Part shown: positions 240 to 11,687 of the stretch, in pieces
Layout of the letters: every line of letters begins with the position of its first letter
Numbering within the stretch: position 1 is the stretch's first letter
NCBI GenBank assembly: GCA_030592145.1
Contig: JAUVKJ010000021.1
Coordinates: 1 to 11,687, forward strand
Direction: 5' to 3'
Source of the DNA: Bacteroides sp.
GTDB taxonomy: Bacteria > Bacteroidota > Bacteroidia > Bacteroidales > SM23-62
DNA: 11,687 nucleotides
Notes under the pieces: model-generated
What the model saw: only the letters and a program-made list of their open reading frames with translations
What the model was told of the DNA's origin: nothing
Databases searched by the model: none
Translations under genes and position numbers: made by a program

Positions 240-488
240 ATGCAAATAAAAAGGAATATTGCCGTCAGTGAGACCGGGTTTGTATTTGACCCGACCAGCG
301 GTGAATCGTATACGATAAACCGGGTGGGACAGGAGATCATAGCCCTGCTGAAGGAAGGGAAAACGCCCGAAGAGATCTCTGCCACGATGTGCGGGGAATA
401 CGAGATCGACCCGGCCAGCTTTGAGAAATATTATTATGATTTTATCGGAATGCTCCGGCAATTCCAGTTAATCGGAGGAGATGAGTAA
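240..488 (+). CDS. PqqD-like small protein (RRE-type fold)
   Basis: This 82-residue protein fits the PqqD family in length and pattern. An N-terminal beta-hairpin region (IAVSETGFVFDPTSGESYTI, about residues 8-27) is followed by a helix (VGQEIIALLKEGKTPEEI) and a helical C-terminal part with an aromatic EKYYYDFIGML segment. PqqD proteins bind precursor peptides and present them to a modifying enzyme; the fold underlies RiPP recognition elements. No PqqA-E genes are nearby, so a role in PQQ synthesis is not supported. The gene overlaps the ATP-grasp gene by 8 bp, which implies coupled translation and a joint function. I infer that it is a recognition or carrier subunit for that ligase. No precursor peptide is obvious next to it. 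The family call is fairly secure; the role is open. Confidence 0.8.
   Translation: MQIKRNIAVSETGFVFDPTSGESYTINRVGQEIIALLKEGKTPEEISATMCGEYEIDPASFEKYYYDFIGMLRQFQLIGGDE
474..481 (+). promoter_or_regulatory. Shine-Dalgarno inside PqqD-like gene
   Basis: GGAGGAG lies immediately upstream of the ATG at 481, inside the last codons of the PqqD-like gene. It supports this start and coupled translation of the two proteins. Such strong ribosome-binding sites are rare elsewhere in the window. Confidence 0.45.
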
Positions 489-1527
489 AAAGAAGATTTC
501 CGTGGCCCTCACGGGGCTCAATAATACGGACAATCCGGGTCCCGGGGTACCAGTTATCCGCGGTATCCGGGAATCAAAGGAGTTCGATGCAAGGATCATC
601 GGACTTGCCTACGAAAACCTGGAACCGGCCATCTACATGCACAAGGTGGTCGACAAGACCTACCAGGTGCCCTATCCGTCGGACGGAACGGATGTGCTGG
701 TGCAACGGATCCTCGATATCCATGAAAAAGACCCGATCGACGTGTTGATCCCAAATTTCGACGCCGAGCTCTATGCCTTCATGAAGGCTGGAAAAATCCT
801 TAAAAAAGCCGGCATCAGCACCTTTCTGCCCACCCTGGAGCAGTTCGAAGAAAGGCATAAGGCCAACCTCCCCGATTTCGGTGAGAAATACGGTGTGAAG
901 GTGCCCTTCAGCAAGCCCATTTTAAAGCAGGACGAGATATTTAAGCTGAAAAAAGACTTCGAGTACCCACTCATGGTGAAAGGAAAGTTTTACGATGCCT
1001 ACCTGGCCTACAACACCGAGCAGGTGAAGATGCATTACAACAAGATTTCCGCCCAATGGGGACTCCCAATCATCATCCAGGAATTCATTAAGGGGACTGA
1101 GGTGAACGTAGTGGCCCTGGGCGACGGGCGAGGCAATACCGTGGGTGCCGTTCCAATGCGAAAGCAGTACATCACCGACAAGGGAAAGGGATGGGCCGGC
1201 ATCACCCTCGACGACAGAAAACTTCTGGATCTGACCGATAAAATCATCTCGGGGATGAAATGGAGGGGAGGCATGGAAATTGAAATCGTCAAATCCTTTG
1301 AGAACGAACTCTACGTGATCGAGATCAATCCCCGTATCCCGGCCTGGGTTTACCTGGCGGTGGGCGCGGGACAAAACCTGCCCGAGGCGCTTATAAAACT
1401 GGCCCTGGGCATACCGGTGAAACCCTATACGGAATACGAGGTCGGGAAGATGTTCATACGCTATTCCAACGACCTGATCACCGATGTACGTGAATTTGAA
1501 AAACTAGCAACACTTGGAGAACTATAA
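481..1527 (+). CDS. ATP-grasp carboxylate-amine ligase-like protein
   Basis: The 348-residue protein has the three-part ATP-grasp layout. An N-terminal pre-ATP-grasp region (about 1-115) begins with a beta strand and glycine-rich turn (VALTGLNN) and contains PNFDAELY at 91-98. The central part holds the nucleotide-binding lysine region YPLMVKGK (162-169) and the hinge QEFIKGTEVNV (200-210). The C-terminal lobe has GGMEIEIV (263-270) and the metal-binding EINPR (281-285). The layout resembles carbamoyl-phosphate-synthase-large-chain-like and D-Ala-D-Ala-ligase-like enzymes, which activate a carboxylate as acyl phosphate and join it to an amine. No substrate can be read from the sequence. It overlaps the PqqD-like gene by 8 bp and precedes the decarboxylase by 11 bp, so the three products probably act on one substrate. 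The key ATP-grasp residues appear intact. Confidence 0.88.
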   Translation: MSKKKISVALTGLNNTDNPGPGVPVIRGIRESKEFDARIIGLAYENLEPAIYMHKVVDKTYQVPYPSDGTDVLVQRILDIHEKDPIDVLIPNFDAELYAFMKAGKILKKAGISTFLPTLEQFEERHKANLPDFGEKYGVKVPFSKPILKQDEIFKLKKDFEYPLMVKGKFYDAYLAYNTEQVKMHYNKISAQWGLPIIIQEFIKGTEVNVVALGDGRGNTVGAVPMRKQYITDKGKGWAGITLDDRKLLDLTDKIISGMKWRGGMEIEIVKSFENELYVIEINPRIPAWVYLAVGAGQNLPEALIKLALGIPVKPYTEYEVGKMFIRYSNDLITDVREFEKLATLGEL

Positions 1528-1538
1528 TATCAACAATC

Positions 1539-2885
1539 ATGGAAAAAAAGCAATTCGAAAGACCTTATATTAAAAAACTACAGGCCGGGATGCCCAGCAA
1601 ATTCGGCATGAAATCAAAGCCCGAACCGATAACCCATATCGATGACAACTCCGTCGCGGACCTGATCGGGGAATTCGGATCCCCCCTGTTCGTGATCTCT
1701 GAAAAAACCATACGGGAGACCTATAAAAAGGCCCATCATGCCTTTGCCACCAGGTATCCGAAGGTGCAATTTGCCTGGTCGTACAAGACCAATTACCTGG
1801 ATGCGGTCTGCCGTATATTTCACCAGGAAGGGTCCTGGGCAGAAGTGGTGTCCGGATTCGAGTACGACAAGGCCCTGGCCAACGGGGTAAAGGGGAGCCA
1901 GATCATATTCAACGGGCCGGATAAGAACGATGAGGACCTTAAAAAAGCCGTGGGAAACGATTCCCTTATTCATATCGACCATTTTGACGAGATGTATTCC
2001 ATCCTTGCCCTGTCCGAAAAACTCGGCAAAAAACCCAAGGTGGCCATACGGGTAAATATGGATACGGGTGTGTATCCTATGTGGGACCGCTTCGGATTCA
2101 ATTACGAGAATGGTGATGCATGGGATGCCATCAACCGCATCATGATCAATGAAAAGCTGGAGCTGGTAGGATTGCATGCCCATATCGGGACCTATATGAT
2201 GTCTGCTGATTCATACAAGATCGCGGCCGGGAAACTGGCCGACCTGGCCCACGGTGTGGAGAAGAAATACGGCATCCATATCAGATACATAGATATGGGA
2301 GGAGGATTTGCCTCCCGGAACACTCTTAAGGGGGCCTATTATCCGGGAACGGATACAACGCCCAGCTTCGAGGAATATGCCGAAGCGATCTCCTCGGCCC
2401 TGCTCAACTCTGAACTGGATCCCAGGAAACTGCCCACCCTGATCCTGGAAACAGGCAGGGCCCTGATCGATGATGCAGGCTGGCTCCTGGGAACCGTTAT
2501 TGCAAACAAGCGGCTCTCATCGGGCAACCGTGCTACCATCGTGGATGTAGGCGTGAACCTGATGTTCACCTCTTTCTTTTACGAACACGAGGTCTATCCC
2601 GCAGCGCCGGTATCGGAGCACCTTGAAGAAACCACTCTTTACGGTCCCCTTTGCATGAACATCGACGTGTTGCGCGAGGCTATCGCCTTCCCACTACTGA
2701 AAAAAGGCGACCATTTCGTAATCAAACGAATCGGGGCCTACAACATGACACAGTGGATGCAGTTCATTACCCTCAGGCCAAACGTGGTGTTGATCGACCT
2801 GGAAGGCAAGTCCCATATCATACGAAAACAGGAAACCATAGAAAACATCACACAGCAGGAGGTGCTGCCGGCCTACCTGGCCTGA
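1539..2885 (+). CDS. PLP-dependent fold-III decarboxylase (DapDC-like)
   Basis: The 448-residue protein has the alanine-racemase-type barrel plus C-terminal beta domain of diaminopimelate/ornithine/arginine decarboxylases. Visible motifs in order are the PLP-lysine region WSYKTN (K83), RFGF (184-187), LHAHIGT (212-218, the HxHIGS-type element), the phosphate-binding glycine loop MGGGF (253-257), ETGR (304-307, EPGR in most relatives), YGPLCMNID (368-376) and the C-terminal GAYNMTQWMQF (399-409, the GAY element). The catalytic cysteine C372 is kept, but LysA-type enzymes usually read CESxD here, so the substrate-contacting glutamate is missing. That argues for an amino-acid decarboxylase whose substrate is not free diaminopimelate. 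An N-terminal extension of about 30 residues precedes the usual start of the fold. The enzyme is cytosolic and probably part of the same operon. A racemase activity is less likely. Confidence 0.88.
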   Translation: MEKKQFERPYIKKLQAGMPSKFGMKSKPEPITHIDDNSVADLIGEFGSPLFVISEKTIRETYKKAHHAFATRYPKVQFAWSYKTNYLDAVCRIFHQEGSWAEVVSGFEYDKALANGVKGSQIIFNGPDKNDEDLKKAVGNDSLIHIDHFDEMYSILALSEKLGKKPKVAIRVNMDTGVYPMWDRFGFNYENGDAWDAINRIMINEKLELVGLHAHIGTYMMSADSYKIAAGKLADLAHGVEKKYGIHIRYIDMGGGFASRNTLKGAYYPGTDTTPSFEEYAEAISSALLNSELDPRKLPTLILETGRALIDDAGWLLGTVIANKRLSSGNRATIVDVGVNLMFTSFFYEHEVYPAAPVSEHLEETTLYGPLCMNIDVLREAIAFPLLKKGDHFVIKRIGAYNMTQWMQFITLRPNVVLIDLEGKSHIIRKQETIENITQQEVLPAYLA

Positions 2886-2899
2886 CCCCGTCCCAGCCA

Positions 2900-2937
2900 A
2901 TGATCAAAAACGCCATACATACTGCTCGCGAAACCGG
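2900..2937 (+). repeat. Direct repeat, copy 1 of UT-M23 start
   Basis: These 38 bp match 2986-3023 at 35 positions; the two copies are 86 bp apart. The last 24 bp (2914-2937) are followed directly by a tandem degenerate copy at 2938-2961 that matches at 18 of 24 positions. The 24-bp period is eight codons, so the reading frame is kept. Confidence 0.9.
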
Positions 2938-2989
2938 CATACATATTGCAGCTGAAACCAGTCCTGAAAGCAGGCCAGATACCAGATGA
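2900..2989 (+). CDS. 29-codon ORF duplicating next gene's start
   Basis: The ORF begins 14 bp after the decarboxylase stop and ends with TGA overlapping the ATG of the UT-M23 gene (ATGA at 2986-2989), the classic arrangement for translational coupling. Its first 13 residues (MIKNAIHTARETG) nearly match the first 13 of the next protein (MIRTAIHTARETG). It then continues with IHIAAETS, a third degenerate copy. It is most likely a by-product of start-region duplication that may still serve as a coupling leader. A role as a precursor peptide for the PqqD-like protein is possible but has no direct support. Confidence 0.3.
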   Translation: MIKNAIHTARETGIHIAAETSPESRPDTR

Positions 2990-3023
2990 TCAGAACCGCC
3001 ATACATACTGCCCGCGAAACCGG
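2986..3023 (+). repeat. Direct repeat, copy 2 at UT-M23 start
   Basis: This copy contains the start codon and first twelve-plus codons of the UT-M23 gene. Differences from copy 1 are at three positions, mostly transitions. See the entry at 2900-2937 for the first copy. Confidence 0.9.
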
Positions 3024-5205
3024 AGATATAAAACTTTTTATCAGGGGCATTCCAAATTCCTATGCCCAGGTATTCTTTTCGGATAACCGGGTCTTTGCCA
3101 TCATACTGGTGGCGGTAACCTTCATCGATCTGTACGGGGGGATCATGGGTCTCCTTTCGGTGATAACAACCAACCTGACGGGATTCCTGCTGGGATTTGA
3201 CCGGCGCACCATCTCGAAGGGTCTGTATGGGTTTAATTCACTGCTCGTCGGACTTGCACTGGGGGTGTACTTCGCGCCGGGGGGCCTGCTCATAATGATC
3301 GTGGTGCTGGCGGCCATTCTTACCCTGCTTGTGTCGGTCTCCATGCAGGGGGTGATCGGCAAGTACGCCCTTCCCTTCCTCAGTATCCCTTTCCTTATTT
3401 CCGTATGGATCATGACCCTGGCCACCCGTGAGTATACTGCCCTGGGTGTAAGTGAGCGGGGCATCTACACCTTCAATGACCTGTATATGATCGGGGGGAG
3501 CAGCCTGGTGCAACTCTATGAATGGTGGAACGCACTGAGCATCGCGCAGAGCATAAGGATCTACCTGATCTCCCTGGGGGCCATCCTTTTCCAGTACAAT
3601 ATCCTGTCGGGCATCCTCCTTGCGATCGGACTATTTTGCTATTCGAGGATCTCCTTTATCCTTTCGCTGTTCGGCTTCTATACGGCCTTTGTCTTTTACG
3701 AACTGATCGGCGCAAGCATCTCGGAACTAAGCTACAGCTATATCGGCTTTAACTATATCCTGACCGCGATTGCCGTCGGCGGCTTTTTCATTATTCCCTC
3801 GAGAAGGTCGTATTTATGGGTCCTCATTCTGATCCCGATGGTGGCCCTGGTCACGGTCAGCCTTACAAGCATTTTTAACATTCTGGGCCTTCCCATTTAT
3901 TCCCTCCCTTTCAATATCGTGGTGCTGCTTTTCCTGTATGCCCTGAAATTCCGGATCAAACCTTCCGAAAAACTCTCGGAGGTATATATCCAGCAGAATT
4001 CCCCGGAAAAAAACCTGTATTCTTTCCACAACCACCTCATCCGCTTCCATCATTCTGACAAGGAACCCGTCAGGCTGCCCTTTCTGGGGAAGTGGACGGT
4101 CTCGCAGGGACACGAGGGCGAGTACACCCACAAGGACGATTACCGCCATGCCTGGGATTTTATCATTACGGACCTTGAGGGAAAGCAATTTTCAGGAAAA
4201 GGAGACTATCCCGGTGACTATTTCTGTTTCGACAAACCGGTACTGGCCCCGGCTGACGGCACGGTGGAATACATCACCGACAACATCGAAGACAACATCA
4301 TCGGCGAGGTGAATATAAAGGAAAACTGGGGGAACACGGTGATCATCCGCCACGACGATTCACTGTTCACATCGCTGAGCCACCTGAAAAAGGAATCCAT
4401 TCCTGTCAATGTAGGGGAGCGTGTGAAAGCGGGAGACATCATCGGGAGATGCGGGAATTCAGGACGTTCTCCTTATCCCCATCTGCACTTCCAGGTACAG
4501 GAAACCCCGTACATCGGGTCGCCCACTCTCGATTATCCTGTATCCTATTATGTGCTAACCCACAAGGACCGGTTCAGCCTCTGTTCGTTCGACAGGCCGG
4601 GGAAAGACGAGCTGGTCTCGAACATCGAAACCAACGACCTGCTTCACGATGCCTTCCATTTTATACCGGGAAGAAAGTTTTTCTTCGAGGTGGTTGACAA
4701 CGGGCATTCCGGGAGAGTGCAGTGGGAAGTGCAGACCGATCCATTCAACAATACCTTTATCAGGTGCCTGAAGACGAAGTCAACCGCCTGGTTCACCAAC
4801 GATGGCAACCTGCTGTATTTCACCCATTATGAGGGAGACAAAAAGGCCCTCCTGTATTATTTCTTCCTGGCCGCCTTCAAGGTGCAGCAGGGATATTACC
4901 AGGATATGGTATTGAAAGACCGTTATCCGCTGAACCTGCTTTACAGGCCGCCTCTTCTGACCCTGCAGGACATTATTGCCCCTTTCTGGAAATTCCTTTC
5001 CTCCGAATTTGAGCTGCGATATGTCACCATCGATAATGAGATGTCTCCCACCGAGATCACACTGGAATCATCTGCCTGCAACGTCCTTATGGGTGGCGAG
5101 CTGAAACGGCTGGATTTTATTATTTCGGTCAATGAAAAGGGGATCAAACAACTGGATGTCAACGGCGCCAGGTTTAACATAAAAGCAAAATGCACAGACT
5201 GCTGA
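2986..5205 (+). CDS. Urea-transporter-like domain fused to M23 peptidase
   Basis: The 739-residue protein has three parts. Residues about 20-325 form a multi-spanning membrane domain with the internal duplication of the urea transporter (UT) family. GFNSLLVGLALG (82-93) is mirrored by GFNYILTAIAVGG (254-266), and LPFLSIPF (129-136) is mirrored by LPIYSLPFN (302-310). The family's usual threonine in LPxxTxPF is serine in both halves. Residues about 350-525 form a LytM/M23 zinc peptidase domain with RHAWDF (387-392), TVIIRHDDSLFTSLSHL (451-467), VKAGDIIG (480-487) and PHLHFQV (498-504). The first metal ligand is probably H382 or H388 with D391. Residues about 526-739 form a further region I do not recognise. 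The start follows an ATGA overlap with a small ORF. M23 enzymes cut peptidoglycan cross-bridges or similar peptides. No urease or urea pathway is visible nearby. Confidence 0.88.
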   Translation: MIRTAIHTARETGDIKLFIRGIPNSYAQVFFSDNRVFAIILVAVTFIDLYGGIMGLLSVITTNLTGFLLGFDRRTISKGLYGFNSLLVGLALGVYFAPGGLLIMIVVLAAILTLLVSVSMQGVIGKYALPFLSIPFLISVWIMTLATREYTALGVSERGIYTFNDLYMIGGSSLVQLYEWWNALSIAQSIRIYLISLGAILFQYNILSGILLAIGLFCYSRISFILSLFGFYTAFVFYELIGASISELSYSYIGFNYILTAIAVGGFFIIPSRRSYLWVLILIPMVALVTVSLTSIFNILGLPIYSLPFNIVVLLFLYALKFRIKPSEKLSEVYIQQNSPEKNLYSFHNHLIRFHHSDKEPVRLPFLGKWTVSQGHEGEYTHKDDYRHAWDFIITDLEGKQFSGKGDYPGDYFCFDKPVLAPADGTVEYITDNIEDNIIGEVNIKENWGNTVIIRHDDSLFTSLSHLKKESIPVNVGERVKAGDIIGRCGNSGRSPYPHLHFQVQETPYIGSPTLDYPVSYYVLTHKDRFSLCSFDRPGKDELVSNIETNDLLHDAFHFIPGRKFFFEVVDNGHSGRVQWEVQTDPFNNTFIRCLKTKSTAWFTNDGNLLYFTHYEGDKKALLYYFFLAAFKVQQGYYQDMVLKDRYPLNLLYRPPLLTLQDIIAPFWKFLSSEFELRYVTIDNEMSPTEITLESSACNVLMGGELKRLDFIISVNEKGIKQLDVNGARFNIKAKCTDC

Positions 5206-5328
5206 ATAATACAGGCGCGAGTTTGCTGAACGGGAGCAAAATGCACAGGCTGTTAAATAAACCCGGCAGACTGTTAAATATGGCTGGACTTGCTTTGCCG
5301 AACAGAATCAAAATGCACAGGCTGCACA
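5185..5328 (+). repeat. Threefold in-frame repeat of gene start
   Basis: The word CAAAATGCACAGRCTG occurs at 5187, 5238 and 5310, placing ATG codons at 5190, 5241 and 5313, all in the same frame (spacings 51 and 72 bp). Copies 1 and 2 also share CTGYTRAATAA just after, and the text before copies 2 and 3 is similar (TTGCTGAACGGGAGC and TTGCTTTGCCGAACAG). Copy 1 overlaps the end of the UT-M23 gene, so its last codons (MHRL frame: KCTDC-stop) come from the same repeat. Confidence 0.85.
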
Positions 5329-6656
5329 AGTTGCTGCTCATAGCGTGCCTTGTTCTGCTGATTCAGCCCCTGAGATCACAGTCGTTCACAGAGGTTGATT
5401 CCGGAACCTATCAGCTTTACGTGGAGAAAAACTGGGTGGAACTGATCCGTACCGGAAGGGCTGCCCTGAAGCAGGACATTGATTATTATTACCTGCGCAT
5501 GCGTATCGGGATCGCGTATTACGAAAAGAAAAACTACAAATCGGCCCAGTCCCATTTTCGTAAGGCCCTTGAATTCAGCGAAGGGGATCCCCTGGCATTG
5601 GAATACCTGTATTATTCATATCTTTTCGTCCGACAAACACAGCAGGCCGCATTAGTGTACAAGGGTTTTACGGATTCACTTAAGGAGAAGATTCCGGACC
5701 CCGGCCAGGAGGCGGTAGAAGGACTTTCTGTCGAATACCTTAACGACCGGTCCTTTACAGACGATCTGATTGCCGATCCGGATCTTTTTACAGGACTGCC
5801 CACAGGGGTGCAGATACTAGGCAGGAGTTACCATAACCTGAACATAAGGCTGCATCATTTTATGCATCCCGGCACTTCCTTTATCCATGCCTATACCTAC
5901 CTGAATAAGTCCAATTTTTATTATTACAACGACGGACTTAACCGCTTCGGGGTGGATGGGCAAAAGGTCAGCCAGCACCAGTATTACCTTTCTCCCTCGT
6001 TTACATCGGGCGGGGGACTAGTTATTAGTCCCGCGTTCCACTTTCTGCGGGTCGCATACGAGGTGCCGTATTTCTCTAGCGGGGGACCCGGTGCCGGGGG
6101 AGGAAACAGCGCGAAGTTCATAAATGAATACCTGAGCCAGATAGTTGGGGGACTGAACCTTACGAAGTACCAGGGGCCTTTCCGCTTCCGGCTCGGGGCC
6201 CTGTATTCAAACCTGAACCATGCCAGGCAGTTCACCGGATCGGCCAGACTCAGATGGTACCCCCTGGGTAACCTGGATCTTTACATGGGAGCCTCCCTGA
6301 ATGCCCACATGGAAGATGCCGGTGAAGGCGGCACGGAGCTGATCCCGGACTTTATGCTCGGTTACGGTATTGCCTCAAAGGTCTGGATCGAAATCTCCGG
6401 AGCTTACGGGGAAATGAAAAATTATAGCGAGTTAAACGGATACATCATTTATAACGGGACTGACTGGATGAAATACAAAGCCATCGGCAACATTGTCGTG
6501 CCCCTGACGGAAAAGGGTTCGGTGATCTATGCCGGCGCGCGTTTTGCTCAGTATGAAAGCCGGTTCATTCCTTTTGAACCGGCACAGCCGGAAGACCTGA
6601 ACATTATTAATTATAACAGCATATCAATATTTGGAGGTTTATCATGGAAATTTTAA
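5313..6656 (+). CDS. TPR plus outer-membrane beta-barrel protein
   Basis: From the ATG at 5313 the 447-residue protein starts with a good signal peptide: MHRLHK, a hydrophobic core LLLIACLVLLIQPL, and likely cleavage near RSQ (about residue 22). A TPR-like helical region follows (about 35-119, with RIGIAYYEKKNYKSAQSHF). From about 150 to the end there are alternating strands rich in Tyr, Gly and Asn, closing with GGLSWKF, a terminal aromatic strand typical of outer-membrane barrels. The frame is open upstream to ATG at 5190 and 5241, but these would add 41 or 24 residues before the signal peptide, so 5313 is preferred. Its overall plan resembles YaiO-type barrels. It probably forms an outer-membrane partner for the inner-membrane UT-M23 protein. 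The substrate is unknown. Confidence 0.8.
   Translation: MHRLHKLLLIACLVLLIQPLRSQSFTEVDSGTYQLYVEKNWVELIRTGRAALKQDIDYYYLRMRIGIAYYEKKNYKSAQSHFRKALEFSEGDPLALEYLYYSYLFVRQTQQAALVYKGFTDSLKEKIPDPGQEAVEGLSVEYLNDRSFTDDLIADPDLFTGLPTGVQILGRSYHNLNIRLHHFMHPGTSFIHAYTYLNKSNFYYYNDGLNRFGVDGQKVSQHQYYLSPSFTSGGGLVISPAFHFLRVAYEVPYFSSGGPGAGGGNSAKFINEYLSQIVGGLNLTKYQGPFRFRLGALYSNLNHARQFTGSARLRWYPLGNLDLYMGASLNAHMEDAGEGGTELIPDFMLGYGIASKVWIEISGAYGEMKNYSELNGYIIYNGTDWMKYKAIGNIVVPLTEKGSVIYAGARFAQYESRFIPFEPAQPEDLNIINYNSISIFGGLSWKF
6633..6644 (+). promoter_or_regulatory. Shine-Dalgarno deciding start at 6644
   Basis: GGAGG at 6633-6637 sits 6 nt before the ATG at 6644, inside the end of the barrel gene. It is one of the few clear Shine-Dalgarno sequences in the window and favours this start over the in-frame ATG at 6734. 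Because it also encodes the conserved GGL of the barrel's last strand, its presence may be partly coincidental. Confidence 0.4.
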
Positions 6657-7381
6657 AAATTAAAAAAATAATTGGTGGCGGCGGGATATTCTGCCGGCGA
6701 AAGAGCATACAGGAAAATTTTAGCACTGTCGGAATGACTCGGCCGGGAAGGATATCCGGCTCACAGATTTTAAAATTACTTTTCGGCGGACTAATCCTTC
6801 TGATTGTTCCGCTGATTGTTTCGGCACAGGATTTTGCAGCTACAAGGGATGCTTTCCAGGAAAGCTACATCCAGGAGGCATCCGGTGTGACCCTAAGTGC
6901 CATCAGTTCGCTGCAAGCCGTGTATGATGAAAAATCTTATGAACTGAACCTTCGCCTGGGCTGGCTGAGCTATCAGGCGGGAAGATTTACCGAATCGGTC
7001 GCCTATTACAGCAAAGCCATAGATCTGATGCCCTATGCCGTTGAACCCCGCTTCGGGATCGTTTACCCGGGTGCCGCGATGGGAAACTGGAACATGGTGA
7101 TCAGTCAGTATGATAAGATCCTGGAGATCACTCCCAACAATTCCATTGCGATGCATCGTCTGGGACTCATCTACTACGGAAGAGAGGACTATGAGATGGC
7201 CCGGAAGTATTTTGATAAGGTGATGAACCTGTTCCCCTTTGATTACGATGCCCTGACCATGCTTGGCTGGTCCTATTTCAGGCTAAAAAACTTCCGGGAG
7301 TCAAAGGTACTTTTCCAGAAGGCCCTGCTACACACACCCGGTGGTACTTCCGCAATCGAGGGACTGGAACTTTTAGACTAA
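6644..7381 (+). CDS. Secreted TPR-repeat protein
   Basis: The 245-residue protein overlaps the barrel gene by 13 bp. A hydrophobic segment (ILKLLFGGLILLIVPLIVSAQ, about 42-62) ends in a likely signal-peptidase site at SAQ. About four TPR-type repeats then fill residues 95-245: NLRLGWLSYQAGRFTESVAYY, a degenerate repeat around MGNWNMVISQYDKIL, HRLGLIYYGREDYEMARKYF and TMLGWSYFRLKNFRESKVLF. Such repeats make protein-protein contact surfaces, here probably in the periplasm. With the start at 6644 the signal peptide would have an unusually long basic n-region; the in-frame ATG at 6734 (residue 31) gives a more ordinary one. I infer a scaffold that links the inner- and outer-membrane members of the cluster. 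It has no catalytic motif. Confidence 0.8.
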   Translation: MEILKIKKIIGGGGIFCRRKSIQENFSTVGMTRPGRISGSQILKLLFGGLILLIVPLIVSAQDFAATRDAFQESYIQEASGVTLSAISSLQAVYDEKSYELNLRLGWLSYQAGRFTESVAYYSKAIDLMPYAVEPRFGIVYPGAAMGNWNMVISQYDKILEITPNNSIAMHRLGLIYYGREDYEMARKYFDKVMNLFPFDYDALTMLGWSYFRLKNFRESKVLFQKALLHTPGGTSAIEGLELLD

Positions 7382-7466: not shown

Positions 7467-8267
7467 ATGAGAAATTTACTGACCGGAATTCTGATAGTGG
7501 CAGGCATGACTGCCCTTGCACAAACCGACCTTGAATCAAGCCTTGAATACACTTACCCGGTATCCGCATCCATCTGCTGCCTGGAGAAATCCGGAGATAA
7601 GTATTTTTCAATGGATGTGACAAACAAGCAATGCCGGATCTACAACCTGGATCATACCCTGTTCAAGACCATTAACCTGACAGTCCCTGCCGATTATTAC
7701 CTGTACAATATCCTGTACGTGAGCGAGCACACCTTTAACCAGGACGACCTGATCGAATTAGCCTACATCTATTCGAAGTACAATCTCACGGAAACCTCGT
7801 ATTACTACTCGTACGAGACAAGGGTGATCAACGAGAACGGGGTGGAGATGCTGAAGGTTCCCGGCGCAGGCCACACCGAGATCCTGGAAACGGAGAATAA
7901 CGGGCGGAAATTCCTGGTATATGTCTATGATTTTTACCAGATCCCGGCAAGCACCCAGACAAAAGTGTATTCCCTGCCTGAAAGTCCCCTGAAATCCGGA
8001 CCGATCCGGCAGCAGCATAAGCTGGGCAATCCCTGGCCCAATCCTTCACGAGGAATGGTAAACATCCCTGTAAAAATCCCTCCCGGTGCGGGGCCCGGGG
8101 AGCTGATCCTGTACAACATCCACGGCCAGGAAGTTATGCGCCACCCGGTAAACGGCGACGAAGAACTCATCGTCATGCCGGGCGGAACCCTGATCCCCGG
8201 AACCTACGTATATAAACTTAAATCCGGCAACACGGAATCTCCGGGAAAAAAGATCAGTATTCACTAA
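7467..8267 (+). CDS. Secreted protein with T9SS type A sorting domain
   Basis: The 266-residue protein has a signal peptide (MRNLLTGILIVAGMTALAQ, cleavage near residue 18). A central domain of about 150 residues is rich in Tyr and Asp and looks like beta strands (for example LVYVYDFYQIP, 150-160). It ends in a type IX secretion C-terminal sorting domain: GNPWPNPSRGMVNI (187-200), LYNIHGQEV (215-223), GTYVYKL (245-251) and a terminal KKISI. That domain directs export through the outer membrane and cell-surface attachment in Bacteroidota. The central part is not recognised; two adjacent cysteines occur at 37-38 and another at 56. An 85-bp gap with a repeat separates it from the operon upstream, so co-regulation is uncertain. 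Confidence 0.85.
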   Translation: MRNLLTGILIVAGMTALAQTDLESSLEYTYPVSASICCLEKSGDKYFSMDVTNKQCRIYNLDHTLFKTINLTVPADYYLYNILYVSEHTFNQDDLIELAYIYSKYNLTETSYYYSYETRVINENGVEMLKVPGAGHTEILETENNGRKFLVYVYDFYQIPASTQTKVYSLPESPLKSGPIRQQHKLGNPWPNPSRGMVNIPVKIPPGAGPGELILYNIHGQEVMRHPVNGDEELIVMPGGTLIPGTYVYKLKSGNTESPGKKISIH

Positions 8268-8321: not shown

Positions 8322-11300
8322 ATGTTTGAAAGGATCATTTCATTCTCAATTAAGTACAAAGCCATTGTCGCTTTTCTGGTGGCCGTAATGGCGGGAATGG
8401 GAATCTGGTCGATGACACAGATCCCGATCGATGCGGTACCCGACATCACCAACAACCAGGTCCAGGTAGTAACCAGTTCCCCCTCCCTTTCCCCCCAGGA
8501 GGTAGAGAAATTCATTACCTACCCGCTGGAGGTGACCATGGCCAACATCAAGGATGTTATTGAGATCCGCTCCATTTCCCGTTACGGGCTCTCGGTTGTG
8601 ACCGTAGTATTTAAAGACCGGGTTCCCATTCTTGATGCCCGGCAGCTTGTAAATGAACAGATCGGGATGGCCCGCAGCGAGATCCCCGAAGAGCTGGGCA
8701 CTCCAGAGATGCTTCCCATTACCACGGGACTTGGAGAAGTTTATCAGTATACCCTGCAGGTCGATAAAGGTTTTGCCGATCGCTATGATGCCATGGAGCT
8801 GAGGACCCTGCAGGACTGGATTGTCAAGCGGCAGCTTTCAGGAATCCACGGAATTGTGGAGATCTCAAGTTTTGGCGGATTCCTCAAGCAATATGAGGTC
8901 TGCGTCGACCCGGTCCGGCTAAAATCCTTCGGCCTGACTATCACCGACATTCACGAGGCCGTTTCAAAGAATAATCAGAATACCGGTGGGTCCTACATTG
9001 AAAAAGGACCTTATGCTTTTTATATAAGGGCAGAGGGACTGGTGGAGGAGCTTTCGGACCTGGAAAACGTTGTGGTGAAAACGTTTGCCGGGATACCCGT
9101 TCTCCTGGGTCAGGTGGCCACACTCCGGTATGGCCATGCAACCAGATTCGGGGCCATGACCGCCAACGGGAAAGGCGAAGCCGTCGGTGGTATCACCCTG
9201 ATGCTGAAAGGGGCTAATTCATCCGAAGTCATCCGCCAGGTCAAGGAGCGCATAGACAGGGTGCAGGAATCCCTTCCCGAAGGGGTAAGGATCGTTCCCT
9301 ACCTTGACAGGGCGGAACTGGTTTCCAAGACCACCCATACAGTAGCCGAGAACCTGATCCTCGGGGGACTCCTGGTTATCTTTGTACTTGTCCTGCTGCT
9401 TGGCAACATTCGTTTGGGACTTATCGTAGCTTCGGTCATTCCCCTGTCCCTCCTGTTCTCCTTTATCATGATGAACCTGTTCGGGGTCTCTGCCAACCTG
9501 ATGTCGCTGGGGGCCATAGACTTCGGGATCGTTATCGACGGGGCAGTGATCATTGTCGAAAGCATCATGCACCAGTTATACAAAAAACACCGGAATAGGA
9601 AGTTCACACGCGATGAAATGGATAAGGTGATTACCACAGCGGCCACCTCCATATATAAATCAGCGGGATTCGGGGTAATCATCATCCTGATCGTTTTCAT
9701 TCCCATCATGACCCTGACCGGCATTGAGGGAAAGACCTTCAAACCCATGGCCCAGACCTTCAGCTTTGCCATCCTGGGGGCTTTCATCCTTTCGATGACC
9801 TATGTTCCCATGATGTCAGCCCTGATCATGAAAAGGAACATCATCTGGAAGGAAACCTTTTCCGACAAGATCATAAAGTTCCTCAAGCTTACGTATCATC
9901 CTGTTCTGAAGCTTTCACTCAGGAACAAAACACCTCTCCTGCTGAGTACCCTGGCTGTGGTCGTTTTCTCGGCCTTTATCTACAGCCGTATGGGAGGAGA
10001 GTTCCTGCCTACCCTGGAGGAGGGAGACCTGGCCATGCAGATGACCATACCACCGGGATCGTCCCTTTCGCAGAGCGTACGCCAGACCACCCGGGCAGAA
10101 AAGATATTGCTGGATAATTTTCCGGAAGTGGAACAGGTCGTCTCCAAGATCGGGACCGCCGAAGTGCCGACCGATCCCATGGCCGTGGAGGATGCCGACA
10201 TTATGATCGTACTCAGGGAAAAAAAGGAATGGACCTCGGCCCGGACCCGGGAAGAACTGATTGAACAGATGAAGGAAAAGCTGGAGGTTATCACAGCTGC
10301 CTCCTTCGAATTCACCCAGCCCATACAATTGCGGTTCAACGAACTGATGACGGGGGCCAAGACCGATATTGCCGTAAAGATCTACGGGGAGGACATCGAT
10401 GAGCTCTACCGGGCGGCCAACCGGGCCGCTTCCCTGATCCAGGGGATGGAAGGGGCGTCAGACGTCAAAGTGGAACAGATATCCGGACTGCCCCAGTATG
10501 TAATCCGGTACGATCGTCAGAAAATGGCCAGGTACGGCCTGAACATCGAAGAGCTTAATACCATCGTACGTACCGCTTTTGCCGGTGAGGTAGCAGGAGT
10601 AGTTTTCGAGGGCGAGCGGAAGTTTGACCTGGTCGTACGGATGGATTCCACTTTCCGGAAAGACATGAACCTGGCGTACATTTTTGCGCGTTCTTCGGGT
10701 GGTGTACTCGTCCCCTTAAGTGAAGTGGCCACCATGGAATACCTTGAGGGCCCTCTTCAGATCTCCCGCGACGACACCAAACGCAGGGTGACCATAGGGA
10801 TCAATGTCCGTAACCGGGATGTCAAAAGCCTGGTCTGGGAGATCAACCGGGAACTTTCGGCGAAGCTGGAGCTGAAGGCCGGTTATTACATCACGTACGG
10901 AGGACAGTTTGAGAACCTTGAAAATGCCCTCCGACGGCTGAAGGCAGCCGTACCTATTGCTCTTATCCTGATCCTCATACTCCTGTTCTTCACCTTCAAC
11001 TCGGTAAAATATGCCCTGCTGATCTTTACCGCCGTACCCCTTTCGGCGGTCGGCGGGGTACTGGCCCTGTGGATCCGGGGAATGCCTTTCAGCATTTCGG
11101 CCGGTGTGGGATTCATAGCCCTCTTCGGAGTGTCTGTTCTGAATGGCATTGTCCTGATCTCCTACTACAACGACCTGAGAAAGGAAGGAGTGAAGAACAT
11201 CAATTACATTATCGTTAAGGGGGCCTGCACCCGGTTGAGGCCCGTGCTGATAACCGCGGTAACGGATATTCTGGGATTTCTTCCCATGGCCATTTCCGTT

Positions 11301-11687
11301 TCGGCCGGAGCAGAGGTCCAGAGGCCACTCGCCACAGTGGTGATCGGCGGACTCATAACCTCAACTCTCCTGACCCTGATCATTTTACCTATACTATACA
11401 GCATGATGAACCGACAGGAACCTCCAGCGCTAACCAGTCCCATGCAGCCTGCACCGGACTCACCCCTGTCAACGGGCAGCGGTAAAGGCCGCCTGGGTAG
11501 TCGCCTGAATTTCCACCGGAATGATCACCTCAGTGGTGGACGGGAAAACCGGCCTAAAGGGTTTTTGAAAGGGGGCCGGTTTAAGCCTGCCCTGCTCCTG
11601 TTTCCCCTGGTGCTTGTAACGCTGCTTCTCCTTCCCCGGAAGGGAAATGCCCAGGATGGTACTACTTCCGGCGCCATTCAAACCGAT
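8322..11687 (+). CDS. czcA: Heavy-metal RND efflux pump CzcA/CusA, 3' open
   Basis: The frame is open for 1122 codons to the window edge with no stop. Residues 1-1031 are a complete heavy-metal RND pump, the inner-membrane proton-driven part of a tripartite exporter. It opens with MFERIISFSIKYK and the first membrane helix, then PDITNNQVQV and two periplasmic porter regions. TM4 carries DFGIVIDGAVIIVE, giving D400, D406 and E413, close to CzcA D402, D408 and E415. This pattern is typical of pumps for divalent ions (Zn, Co, Cd, Ni) rather than the Cu/Ag class. NELMTGAKTDIAVKIYG and a closing membrane bundle ending near ILYSMMNR follow. After a 56-residue basic linker comes a second signal-like hydrophobic stretch (1088-1110, ending GNAQ). 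Some Bacteroidota pumps carry a C-terminal TolC-type domain, and this one may do so. No MFP gene is seen in the window. The symbol is for the family only. Confidence 0.9.
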   Translation, partial: MFERIISFSIKYKAIVAFLVAVMAGMGIWSMTQIPIDAVPDITNNQVQVVTSSPSLSPQEVEKFITYPLEVTMANIKDVIEIRSISRYGLSVVTVVFKDRVPILDARQLVNEQIGMARSEIPEELGTPEMLPITTGLGEVYQYTLQVDKGFADRYDAMELRTLQDWIVKRQLSGIHGIVEISSFGGFLKQYEVCVDPVRLKSFGLTITDIHEAVSKNNQNTGGSYIEKGPYAFYIRAEGLVEELSDLENVVVKTFAGIPVLLGQVATLRYGHATRFGAMTANGKGEAVGGITLMLKGANSSEVIRQVKERIDRVQESLPEGVRIVPYLDRAELVSKTTHTVAENLILGGLLVIFVLVLLLGNIRLGLIVASVIPLSLLFSFIMMNLFGVSANLMSLGAIDFGIVIDGAVIIVESIMHQLYKKHRNRKFTRDEMDKVITTAATSIYKSAGFGVIIILIVFIPIMTLTGIEGKTFKPMAQTFSFAILGAFILSMTYVPMMSALIMKRNIIWKETFSDKIIKFLKLTYHPVLKLSLRNKTPLLLSTLAVVVFSAFIYSRMGGEFLPTLEEGDLAMQMTIPPGSSLSQSVRQTTRAEKILLDNFPEVEQVVSKIGTAEVPTDPMAVEDADIMIVLREKKEWTSARTREELIEQMKEKLEVITAASFEFTQPIQLRFNELMTGAKTDIAVKIYGEDIDELYRAANRAASLIQGMEGASDVKVEQISGLPQYVIRYDRQKMARYGLNIEELNTIVRTAFAGEVAGVVFEGERKFDLVVRMDSTFRKDMNLAYIFARSSGGVLVPLSEVATMEYLEGPLQISRDDTKRRVTIGINVRNRDVKSLVWEINRELSAKLELKAGYYITYGGQFENLENALRRLKAAVPIALILILILLFFTFNSVKYALLIFTAVPLSAVGGVLALWIRGMPFSISAGVGFIALFGVSVLNGIVLISYYNDLRKEGVKNINYIIVKGACTRLRPVLITAVTDILGFLPMAISVSAGAEVQRPLATVVIGGLITSTLLTLIILPILYSMMNRQEPPALTSPMQPAPDSPLSTGSGKGRLGSRLNFHRNDHLSGGRENRPKGFLKGGRFKPALLLFPLVLVTLLLLPRKGNAQDGTTSGAIQTD
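11418..11687 (+). other. C-terminal extension of the RND pump
   Basis: Residues about 1033-1087 form a low-complexity linker rich in Pro, Ser, Gly, Arg and Asn. Residues 1088-1110 (KPALLLFPLVLVTLLLLP, then RKGNA) form a hydrophobic stretch with a plausible signal-peptidase site before Q1111, and the reading frame continues. Ordinary pumps of this family end soon after residue 1031. The codons around 11630-11644 contain the 15-mer also found at 127-141. The extension probably leads to a periplasmic or outer-membrane domain beyond the window. Confidence 0.6.

Follow-up and report, generated by a model that had tools for sequence, protein, structure and literature searches.

A conserved six-gene unit of Bacteroidota linking a PqqD-like protein, an ATP-grasp ligase and a decarboxylase to a urea-channel-peptidase fusion and predicted envelope proteins

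Layout and conservation of the locus

We analysed a stretch of 11,687 nucleotides from Bacteroides sp. (contig JAUVKJ010000021.1 of assembly GCA_030592145.1; hereafter the window) carrying six adjacent genes. They code for a PqqD-like protein, an ATP-grasp ligase, a pyridoxal phosphate (PLP)-dependent decarboxylase, a fusion between a urea-transporter (UT) fold and an M23 peptidase (UT-M23), an outer-membrane beta-barrel protein and a tetratricopeptide-repeat (TPR) protein (Table 1). The window is a complete contig of a 2.0-Mb draft genome that is 72.8% complete; hence, nothing upstream of base 1 is visible. An earlier reading of the same DNA (the original prediction) had proposed an envelope-linked biosynthetic operon, and our check of the open reading frames (ORFs) found the six genes at the positions that it gave, all on the plus strand. 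It had described them as separated by overlaps or very short gaps. In gene order, the junctions are an 8-nt overlap, an 11-nt gap, a 100-nt gap, a 16-nt overlap and a 13-nt overlap; the description thus fits the strand and four junctions, but not the 100 nt between the decarboxylase and UT-M23 genes.

Table 1. Features of the window and domains of the UT-M23 protein
Feature	Position	Strand	Basis
PqqD-like protein, small peptide-binding family, 82 aa	240..488	+	Pfam PF05402
ATP-grasp ligase, carbamoyl-phosphate-synthase-like, 348 aa	481..1527	+	Pfam PF15632 and PF02655 above cut-off
PLP decarboxylase, alanine-racemase fold, 448 aa	1539..2885	+	Pfam PF02784/PF00278; nearest solved relative FigC (7kh2)
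UT-M23 fusion, 739 aa	2986..5205	+	Pfam UT and Peptidase_M23
Domains of UT-M23: urea-channel fold; M23 metallopeptidase; C-terminal beta-rich domain	residues ~8-352; ~350-536; ~540-739		
TPR and 14-strand outer-membrane beta-barrel protein	5190..6656	+	signal peptide behind ATG at 5313
TPR protein, 245 aa, probably exported	6644..7381	+	Pfam TPR_2, E 2.4e-22
Secreted beta protein with type IX secretion system (T9SS) sorting tail, accessory, not core	7467..8267	+	TIGR04183, 25.8 bits, cut-off 23
CusA-type resistance-nodulation-division (RND) heavy-metal efflux pump, cut by contig end, directly downstream	8322-11687		

The family guesses of the original prediction were borne out by Pfam, with E values of 7e-10 for PqqD, 5e-10 for ATPgrasp_Ter, 1e-31 for Orn_Arg_deC_N, 2e-64 for UT and 3e-18 for Peptidase_M23, and with TPR matches in both of the last two genes. 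NCBIfam gave no name to any of the six proteins, every listed score being under the curated cut-off. None of the six genes matched a defence system in PADLOC, and a defence reading was dropped.

Direct repeats of start regions are present at window positions 2900-3023, where the UT-M23 start has a 38-nt copy (92%) 86 nt upstream of it, and at 5184-5339, where a 33-nt block occurs in three copies (82% and 61% to the first) across the 5' end of the barrel gene. These repeats blur the true start codons. The barrel gene may in fact start at the ATG at 5313, just ahead of the signal peptide, which would abolish its overlap with the UT-M23 gene in the window.

We scanned public genome contigs coding for UT-M23 and kept 80 loci from 87 relatives chosen by likeness to that protein. 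The neighbourhood is conserved: among the 54 loci with enough flank, all six genes are present in identical order and strand in 50. Counted from the longest ORF starts, which may overstate overlaps, the UT-M23 and barrel genes overlap in 56/61 loci and the barrel and TPR genes in 49/56, by exactly 13 nt in 43. Mean pairwise identity over 41 loci is 0.66 for the decarboxylase, 0.64 for the ligase, 0.49 for the TPR protein, 0.47 for the PqqD-like protein, 0.46 for UT-M23 and 0.27 for the barrel. The enzymes are thus the most conserved and the barrel the least, which indicates a fixed chemistry and a variable surface part.

We also determined the co-occurrence of the genes in 296 Bacteroidota genomes, searching each protein singly (E <= 1e-30 for the ATP-grasp ligase and E <= 1e-60 for the decarboxylase). 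Genomes with the UT and M23 parts together were picked by hand. These searches scored only candidates from a loose first pass, and single misses are possible. The ligase, the decarboxylase and UT-M23 were each found in 27 genomes; the three lists are identical, with none in the other 269 (Fisher p = 7e-39, shared ancestry ignored). The PqqD-like protein is present in the same 27 genomes plus one weak extra (G211, E 9e-4). The original prediction had named two outcomes as telling against it, a lack of co-conservation and a biosynthetic trio (PqqD-like protein, ligase and decarboxylase) regularly found without UT-M23 and the reverse; neither was observed. The UT-M23 query had some match in 70 genomes. 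Of the 43 genomes among these that are not bearers, 41 match in the M23 part, and G109 and G206 have a UT-like stretch with stops. In G255 the UT-M23 match stops at residue 530, and in the otherwise complete one-contig genome G005 the UT and M23 parts are split over two overlapping frames (G005:C1:2246015-2248146), which may reflect a sequencing error, decay or frameshifting.

By coordinates, the ligase, decarboxylase and UT-M23 genes are consecutive within 1 kb in all 27 bearer genomes, and the PqqD gene lies <=80 nt from the ligase gene in 26; in G255 a gene for a 661-aa protein stands in between. The bearers span 14 family labels. Cultured bacteria with the genes exist as well, in Algoriphagus, Cyclobacterium, Aquiflexum, Mariniradius and Marinifilum. 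Bearers and non-bearers are mixed in at least seven families (f4, f7, f10, f11, f15, f17 and f24) and two genera (g16 and g17), which indicates that the genes are acquired or lost together.

Could these genes be chance neighbours, or an old gene order inherited vertically? Gene-to-gene identity correlations of 0.79-0.93 over the 41 loci, a range not reached in any of 500 shuffles, are what shared ancestry alone can yield. However, the genes are patchily distributed yet occur in identical genome sets. The T9SS-tailed neighbour, taken as a control, occurs in 5/296 genomes. Only two of the five are bearers, and one bearer (G166) has it far from the operon. We give this explanation next to no weight. 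Thus, the six genes are a real conserved unit, in an arrangement far beyond chance.

The decarboxylase, the ligase and the PqqD-like protein

Conservation was read from alignments of ORFs of 0.75-1.4 times the window length, comprising 57 PqqD-like proteins, 68 ligases, 94 decarboxylases, 96 UT-M23 fusions, 70 barrels and 68 TPR proteins, window included. The best solved relative of the decarboxylase is the N-citrylornithine decarboxylase FigC (7kh2, E 2.3e-59), followed by diaminopimelate decarboxylases at 1e-39. It scored below the cut-offs of both corresponding NCBIfam models, with 239.8 bits against 500 for FslC and 226 bits against 297.9 for the diaminopimelate decarboxylase LysA (TIGR01048). 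The PLP lysine and the active-site Cys and Asp are kept (K83, C372 and D376 in 94/94), and H213, M373, I375, Y401 and Q405 are also found in all 94 sequences.

In the FigC study, docking placed T327, Y331, M355 and Y383 at the imine, the amide and the aliphatic chain, and had H357 and R387 hold the citrate (PMC7857480). The first group is retained, as T344 (93/94), Y348 (92/94), M373 and Y401 (94/94 each). In contrast, the citrate contacts are replaced, H357 by I375 and R387 by Q405, each in 94/94. The position of FigC T330 holds W in 93/94 sequences and F in the window protein. With amide and chain contacts kept and citrate contacts replaced, we infer that the substrate is a ligated amino acid bearing an acyl group other than citrate. 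According to another report, decarboxylases of this fold act on citrylated amino acids, in microcin C modification and on glutamate in butirosin (PMC8503589).

The ligase residues K167, K228, E268, E281, N283 and R285 are present in 68/68 sequences. Its plasmid relatives amount to only two records, one of which is a fusion on a plasmid of Streptomyces zaomyceticus (NZ_CP108525.1; L112 11998-14274), where ligase-like and decarboxylase halves form one 758-aa protein. The ligase-like half is 25% identical to the ligase of the window (E 4e-23) and scores below the Pfam cut-off for ATP-grasp. Such a fusion supports the notion that the two enzymes catalyse consecutive steps. Downstream of the fusion gene are genes for a 195-aa protein without a Pfam match and a fatty acid desaturase.

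The small first protein belongs to the PqqD family, with 39.5 bits against a cut-off of 23.4 for PF05402 (E 7.3e-10), and falls just short of the equivalog cut-off of TIGR04353, the PqqD of the HPr-rel-A system (34.1 bits against 35). PqqD is its sole Pfam match at E 0.01, with none to an acyl-carrier family. Its conserved residues are G13, F16, G21, S23, N27, Y54 and L72. The original prediction had also considered it carrier-like; we rejected such a role through the C-terminus, which varies.

The PqqD-like protein raises the possibility of a maturation system akin to those of ribosomally synthesized and post-translationally modified peptides (RiPPs), in which it would present a ribosomal peptide encoded elsewhere, the ligase and decarboxylase would modify that peptide and the UT-fused M23 domain would remove the leader before export. 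Its Pfam family, its NCBIfam relatives found here, which are peptide-maturation proteins, and the fusion of a peptidase to a channel are all consistent with this idea, as is the same-fold decarboxylase MccE of microcin C (PMC8503589). However, a search of the flanking 700 nt (63 upstream and 49 downstream ends), which could miss very short, diverged or distant ORFs, gave no conserved small ORF that might code for a precursor. Most junctions within the operon are too short for a precursor gene, and a UT pore is narrow for a peptide. None of the eight largest small-ORF clusters shown is common to more than five loci; six are on the opposite strand and hence look like shadows of neighbouring genes. 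A locally encoded precursor was therefore set aside, and we regard RiPP-like maturation as unlikely.

The UT-M23 fusion and the predicted barrel and TPR proteins

The UT-M23 protein has a complete urea-channel fold by fold comparison. The central filter threonines of the urea channel dvUT, T130 and T294, are nevertheless replaced in it, as is the E/Q187 position. The first filter position, S133, is S in 62/62 sequences and in 96/96 of the wider set. The second, S306, is S in 51, A in 10 and T in one of the 62, and S in 65, A in 15, V in 12 and T in 4 of the 96. Ordinary bacterial UTs have T at both positions (6/6). The fusion also differs from dvUT and UT-B by the M23 and further domains fused behind the channel, and by the lack of a link to urease. 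Indeed, the UT family assignment is what would suggest ordinary urea uptake for urease, but urease alpha occurs in 10/296 genomes and in only 1/27 bearers (Fisher p = 1.0). Together with the replaced filter residues, this makes urea uptake very improbable.

In the M23 domain, the zinc and catalytic residues H382, D391, H466, H499 and H501 are intact in 96/96 sequences. The C-terminal domain had no Pfam match in 7/9 members and a weak match under the cut-off in 2/9.

UT proteins have both termini in the cytoplasm. A published description places the loop joining the two halves in the periplasm, in agreement with that topology. In 62/62 UT-M23 proteins, loops assigned inside carry more K+R than those assigned outside (mean 10.9 vs 2.8), as in ordinary UTs (8.2 vs 3.2, 6/6). 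The inside excess persists in 62/62 when the N-terminus and the long middle loop are excluded. The stretch between the last UT helix and the M23 domain has a mean of 3.4 K+R, against 0.3 in ordinary UTs, which have little tail. In the structure model, the only long helix in this stretch, 340-354, does not have the composition of a membrane span. This charge pattern puts the C-terminus inside, and the M23 domain is accordingly predicted to face the cytoplasm and not the cell wall, which contradicts the natural cell-wall reading of such a domain.

That natural reading has a periplasmic M23 domain that cleaves peptidoglycan so that a trans-envelope channel can be seated, or that frees wall peptides, with the amine made by the trio modifying the wall or surface. 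The intact catalytic residues agree with it, and many peptidoglycan endopeptidases are among the M23 fold matches listed; the signal-peptide-like N-termini of the barrel and TPR proteins fit it too, as does a stand-alone Bacteroidota M23 relative (L029) that looks exported. It requires an inverted UT, though, while the charge pattern has the C-terminus inside in 62/62 as in ordinary UTs, and the model has no extra membrane span between the UT and M23 parts. We judge a cell-wall role rather unlikely. Conserved cysteines were tried as a topology test and dropped, as the exported-looking L029 has several too. Relatives of the M23 domain from Thermus, Thermomicrobium and haloarchaea (L114, L115, L116 and L117) are preceded by two or three hydrophobic segments, which does not decide the topology. 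Haloarchaea have no peptidoglycan.

The outer-membrane barrel of the original prediction was invisible to Pfam and NCBIfam, but a confident structure model gives 14 long strands. No YaiO match was present among the 13 families listed for 58 barrel members scanned. By a crude hydrophobicity count, the barrel and TPR proteins have signal-peptide-like N-termini, and the N-terminal hydrophobic core of the TPR protein is found in 55/56 homologues.

The nearest barrel folds include the importers FadL, TodX and CymA, and UT channels are passive and bidirectional. Both points accord with uptake, whereby the barrel and TPR proteins would take in a small amide or amine, the UT part would pass it inward, and the M23 domain and the trio would consume it. 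However, the barrel matches are only 5-12% identical, and a ligase with a decarboxylase is an unusual start for catabolism. We therefore consider uptake quite unlikely.

Proposed pathway, neighbouring genes and significance

The reading that we tentatively favour is that of a single functional unit made of one module for chemistry in the cytoplasm and another in the envelope, in which a compound would be ligated, decarboxylated, processed at the UT channel and exported via the barrel. It rests on computed evidence, namely joint retention, synteny, the folds, the charge pattern, and residues that are intact at the catalytic sites but altered at the pore and substrate positions. The pairing of a biosynthetic trio with envelope parts, as originally proposed, is backed by the families, the folds and the signal-peptide-like N-termini.

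In a first step, the ATP-grasp enzyme would couple an acyl or peptide partner, held by the PqqD-like protein, to an amino acid that probably has a second reactive group, such as a diamino acid. The PLP enzyme would then strip the alpha-carboxylate of the joined amino acid and so produce an amine, much like FigC with its substrate N-citrylornithine, except that the acyl group would not be citrate; the conserved active site suggests as much. The product might next reach the inner face of the UT-type channel, where the fused M23 domain, with its predicted topology, would trim or release it in the cytoplasm, in the manner of peptidase-fused exporters. It would finally leave through the UT pore and cross the outer membrane via the TPR-barrel, helped by the periplasmic TPR protein. 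The more specific proposal, a new export system in which a UT-fold pore with an M23 peptidase on its cytoplasmic face clips a PqqD-presented, ligated and decarboxylated intermediate to deliver a small product to the TPR-barrel, must be considered doubtful.

Parts of this scheme have counterparts in known systems. As in the Francisella rhizoferrin pathway (FigA/FslA, FigC/FslC and a major facilitator superfamily (MFS) transporter), an amino acid would be ligated to an acyl group and then decarboxylated by a PLP enzyme of the alanine-racemase fold, and a transporter gene adjoins the enzyme genes. In contrast, the ligase here is an ATP-grasp enzyme and not an NRPS-independent siderophore (NIS) synthetase, I375 and Q405 stand in place of the citrate-binding residues in 94/94 sequences, UT-M23 is found instead of an MFS transporter, and PqqD, barrel and TPR proteins are additional. 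The butirosin side-chain system similarly combines a small protein (the carrier BtrI), a ligase (BtrJ) and a decarboxylase of the same fold (BtrK, whose structures are among the PDB matches of our decarboxylase), but the small protein here is PqqD-like and not an acyl carrier. The butirosin system is not known to have an envelope part. Peptidase-containing ATP-binding cassette (ABC) transporters (PCATs) are peptidase-fused exporters, and, should the topology of UT-M23 be as predicted, both would have their peptidase on the cytoplasmic side; here, however, a passive UT channel and an M23 zinc peptidase replace an ABC transporter and a C39 cysteine peptidase. In the microcin C system, the same-fold decarboxylase MccE has as its substrate an amino-acid unit that the peptide product already carries (PMC8503589), whereas no precursor peptide is seen here and the partners differ.

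Several observations weigh against the proposed export pathway. Two of the 54 loci (L090 and L101) have no recognisable barrel gene. In two others (L073 and L110) UT-M23 stands alone; the PqqD, ligase and decarboxylase genes of these genomes lie on a different contig, and the surrounding 12 kb hold no match to UT-M23, barrel or TPR proteins. The trio and UT-M23 are thus two physically separable modules that are nonetheless retained in one genome. Gene order was examined in regions from 15 of the 27 bearer genomes and from two others. The TPR gene was recognised in 12/15 of the bearer regions and the barrel gene in only 7/15, in an order that differs in several. In five distant regions, the order is PqqD-ligase-decarboxylase-UT-M23-TPR, followed by a gene for a protein of 274-309 aa in the barrel position; this protein matches the barrel profile in L130 (E 1e-7) and has no barrel assignment in L132, L137, L139 and L144. 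No barrel gene was found in the regions L131, L134, L136 and L142, and no TPR gene was recognised in L133, L134 and L136 (L134 being near a contig end). The missing precursor ORF and the lack of co-occurrence of the T9SS neighbour with the operon genes must be added to these points, as must the signal peptide seen by eye at the start of L029. To our knowledge, all functions described for M23 peptidases are in the cell wall, and none of these enzymes is known to work in the cytoplasm. Finally, as UT proteins are passive, export would need a gradient.

Regarding the surrounding genes, homologues of the T9SS-tailed protein occur beside or inside the operon in 9/80 loci, in four of them between the ligase and decarboxylase genes. 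Four distant genomes (L130, L132, L139 and L144) encode, directly upstream of PqqD, a different type of secreted beta protein with a T9SS tail. Apart from the window, a single locus (L050) has a homologue of the CusA-type pump with >50% identity close to the operon. An AraC-type regulator is encoded upstream in 20/57 loci; its N-terminus may be heavy-metal-like, with cysteines that differ among the copies inspected. We do not claim a link to metals. Three loci (L049, L050 and L053) have a gene for a ~280-aa membrane protein between PqqD and the ligase (DUF4405 in one example scanned) and one for a DUF2202-type protein upstream.

We found no description of the six-gene combination in the published open-access literature, nor did passages of two papers on PqqD and ATP-grasp proteins in RiPPs show such an operon. 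This agrees with the original claim that no characterised pathway has this set. Listed proteins that carry a name are mostly called 'urea transporter' or 'carbamoyl-phosphate synthase large subunit', which conceals the system. Given its joint inheritance and invariant active sites across 14 family-level groups of a single phylum, the unit should have some fixed chemical task, for which we found no name. The cultured bearers make both its product and the topology testable. If the topology holds, it would change the view of M23 peptidases and UT channels. Under the more specific export proposal, no other M23 peptidase known to us would act inside the cell, and no other UT-fold channel would take part in a biosynthetic pathway.

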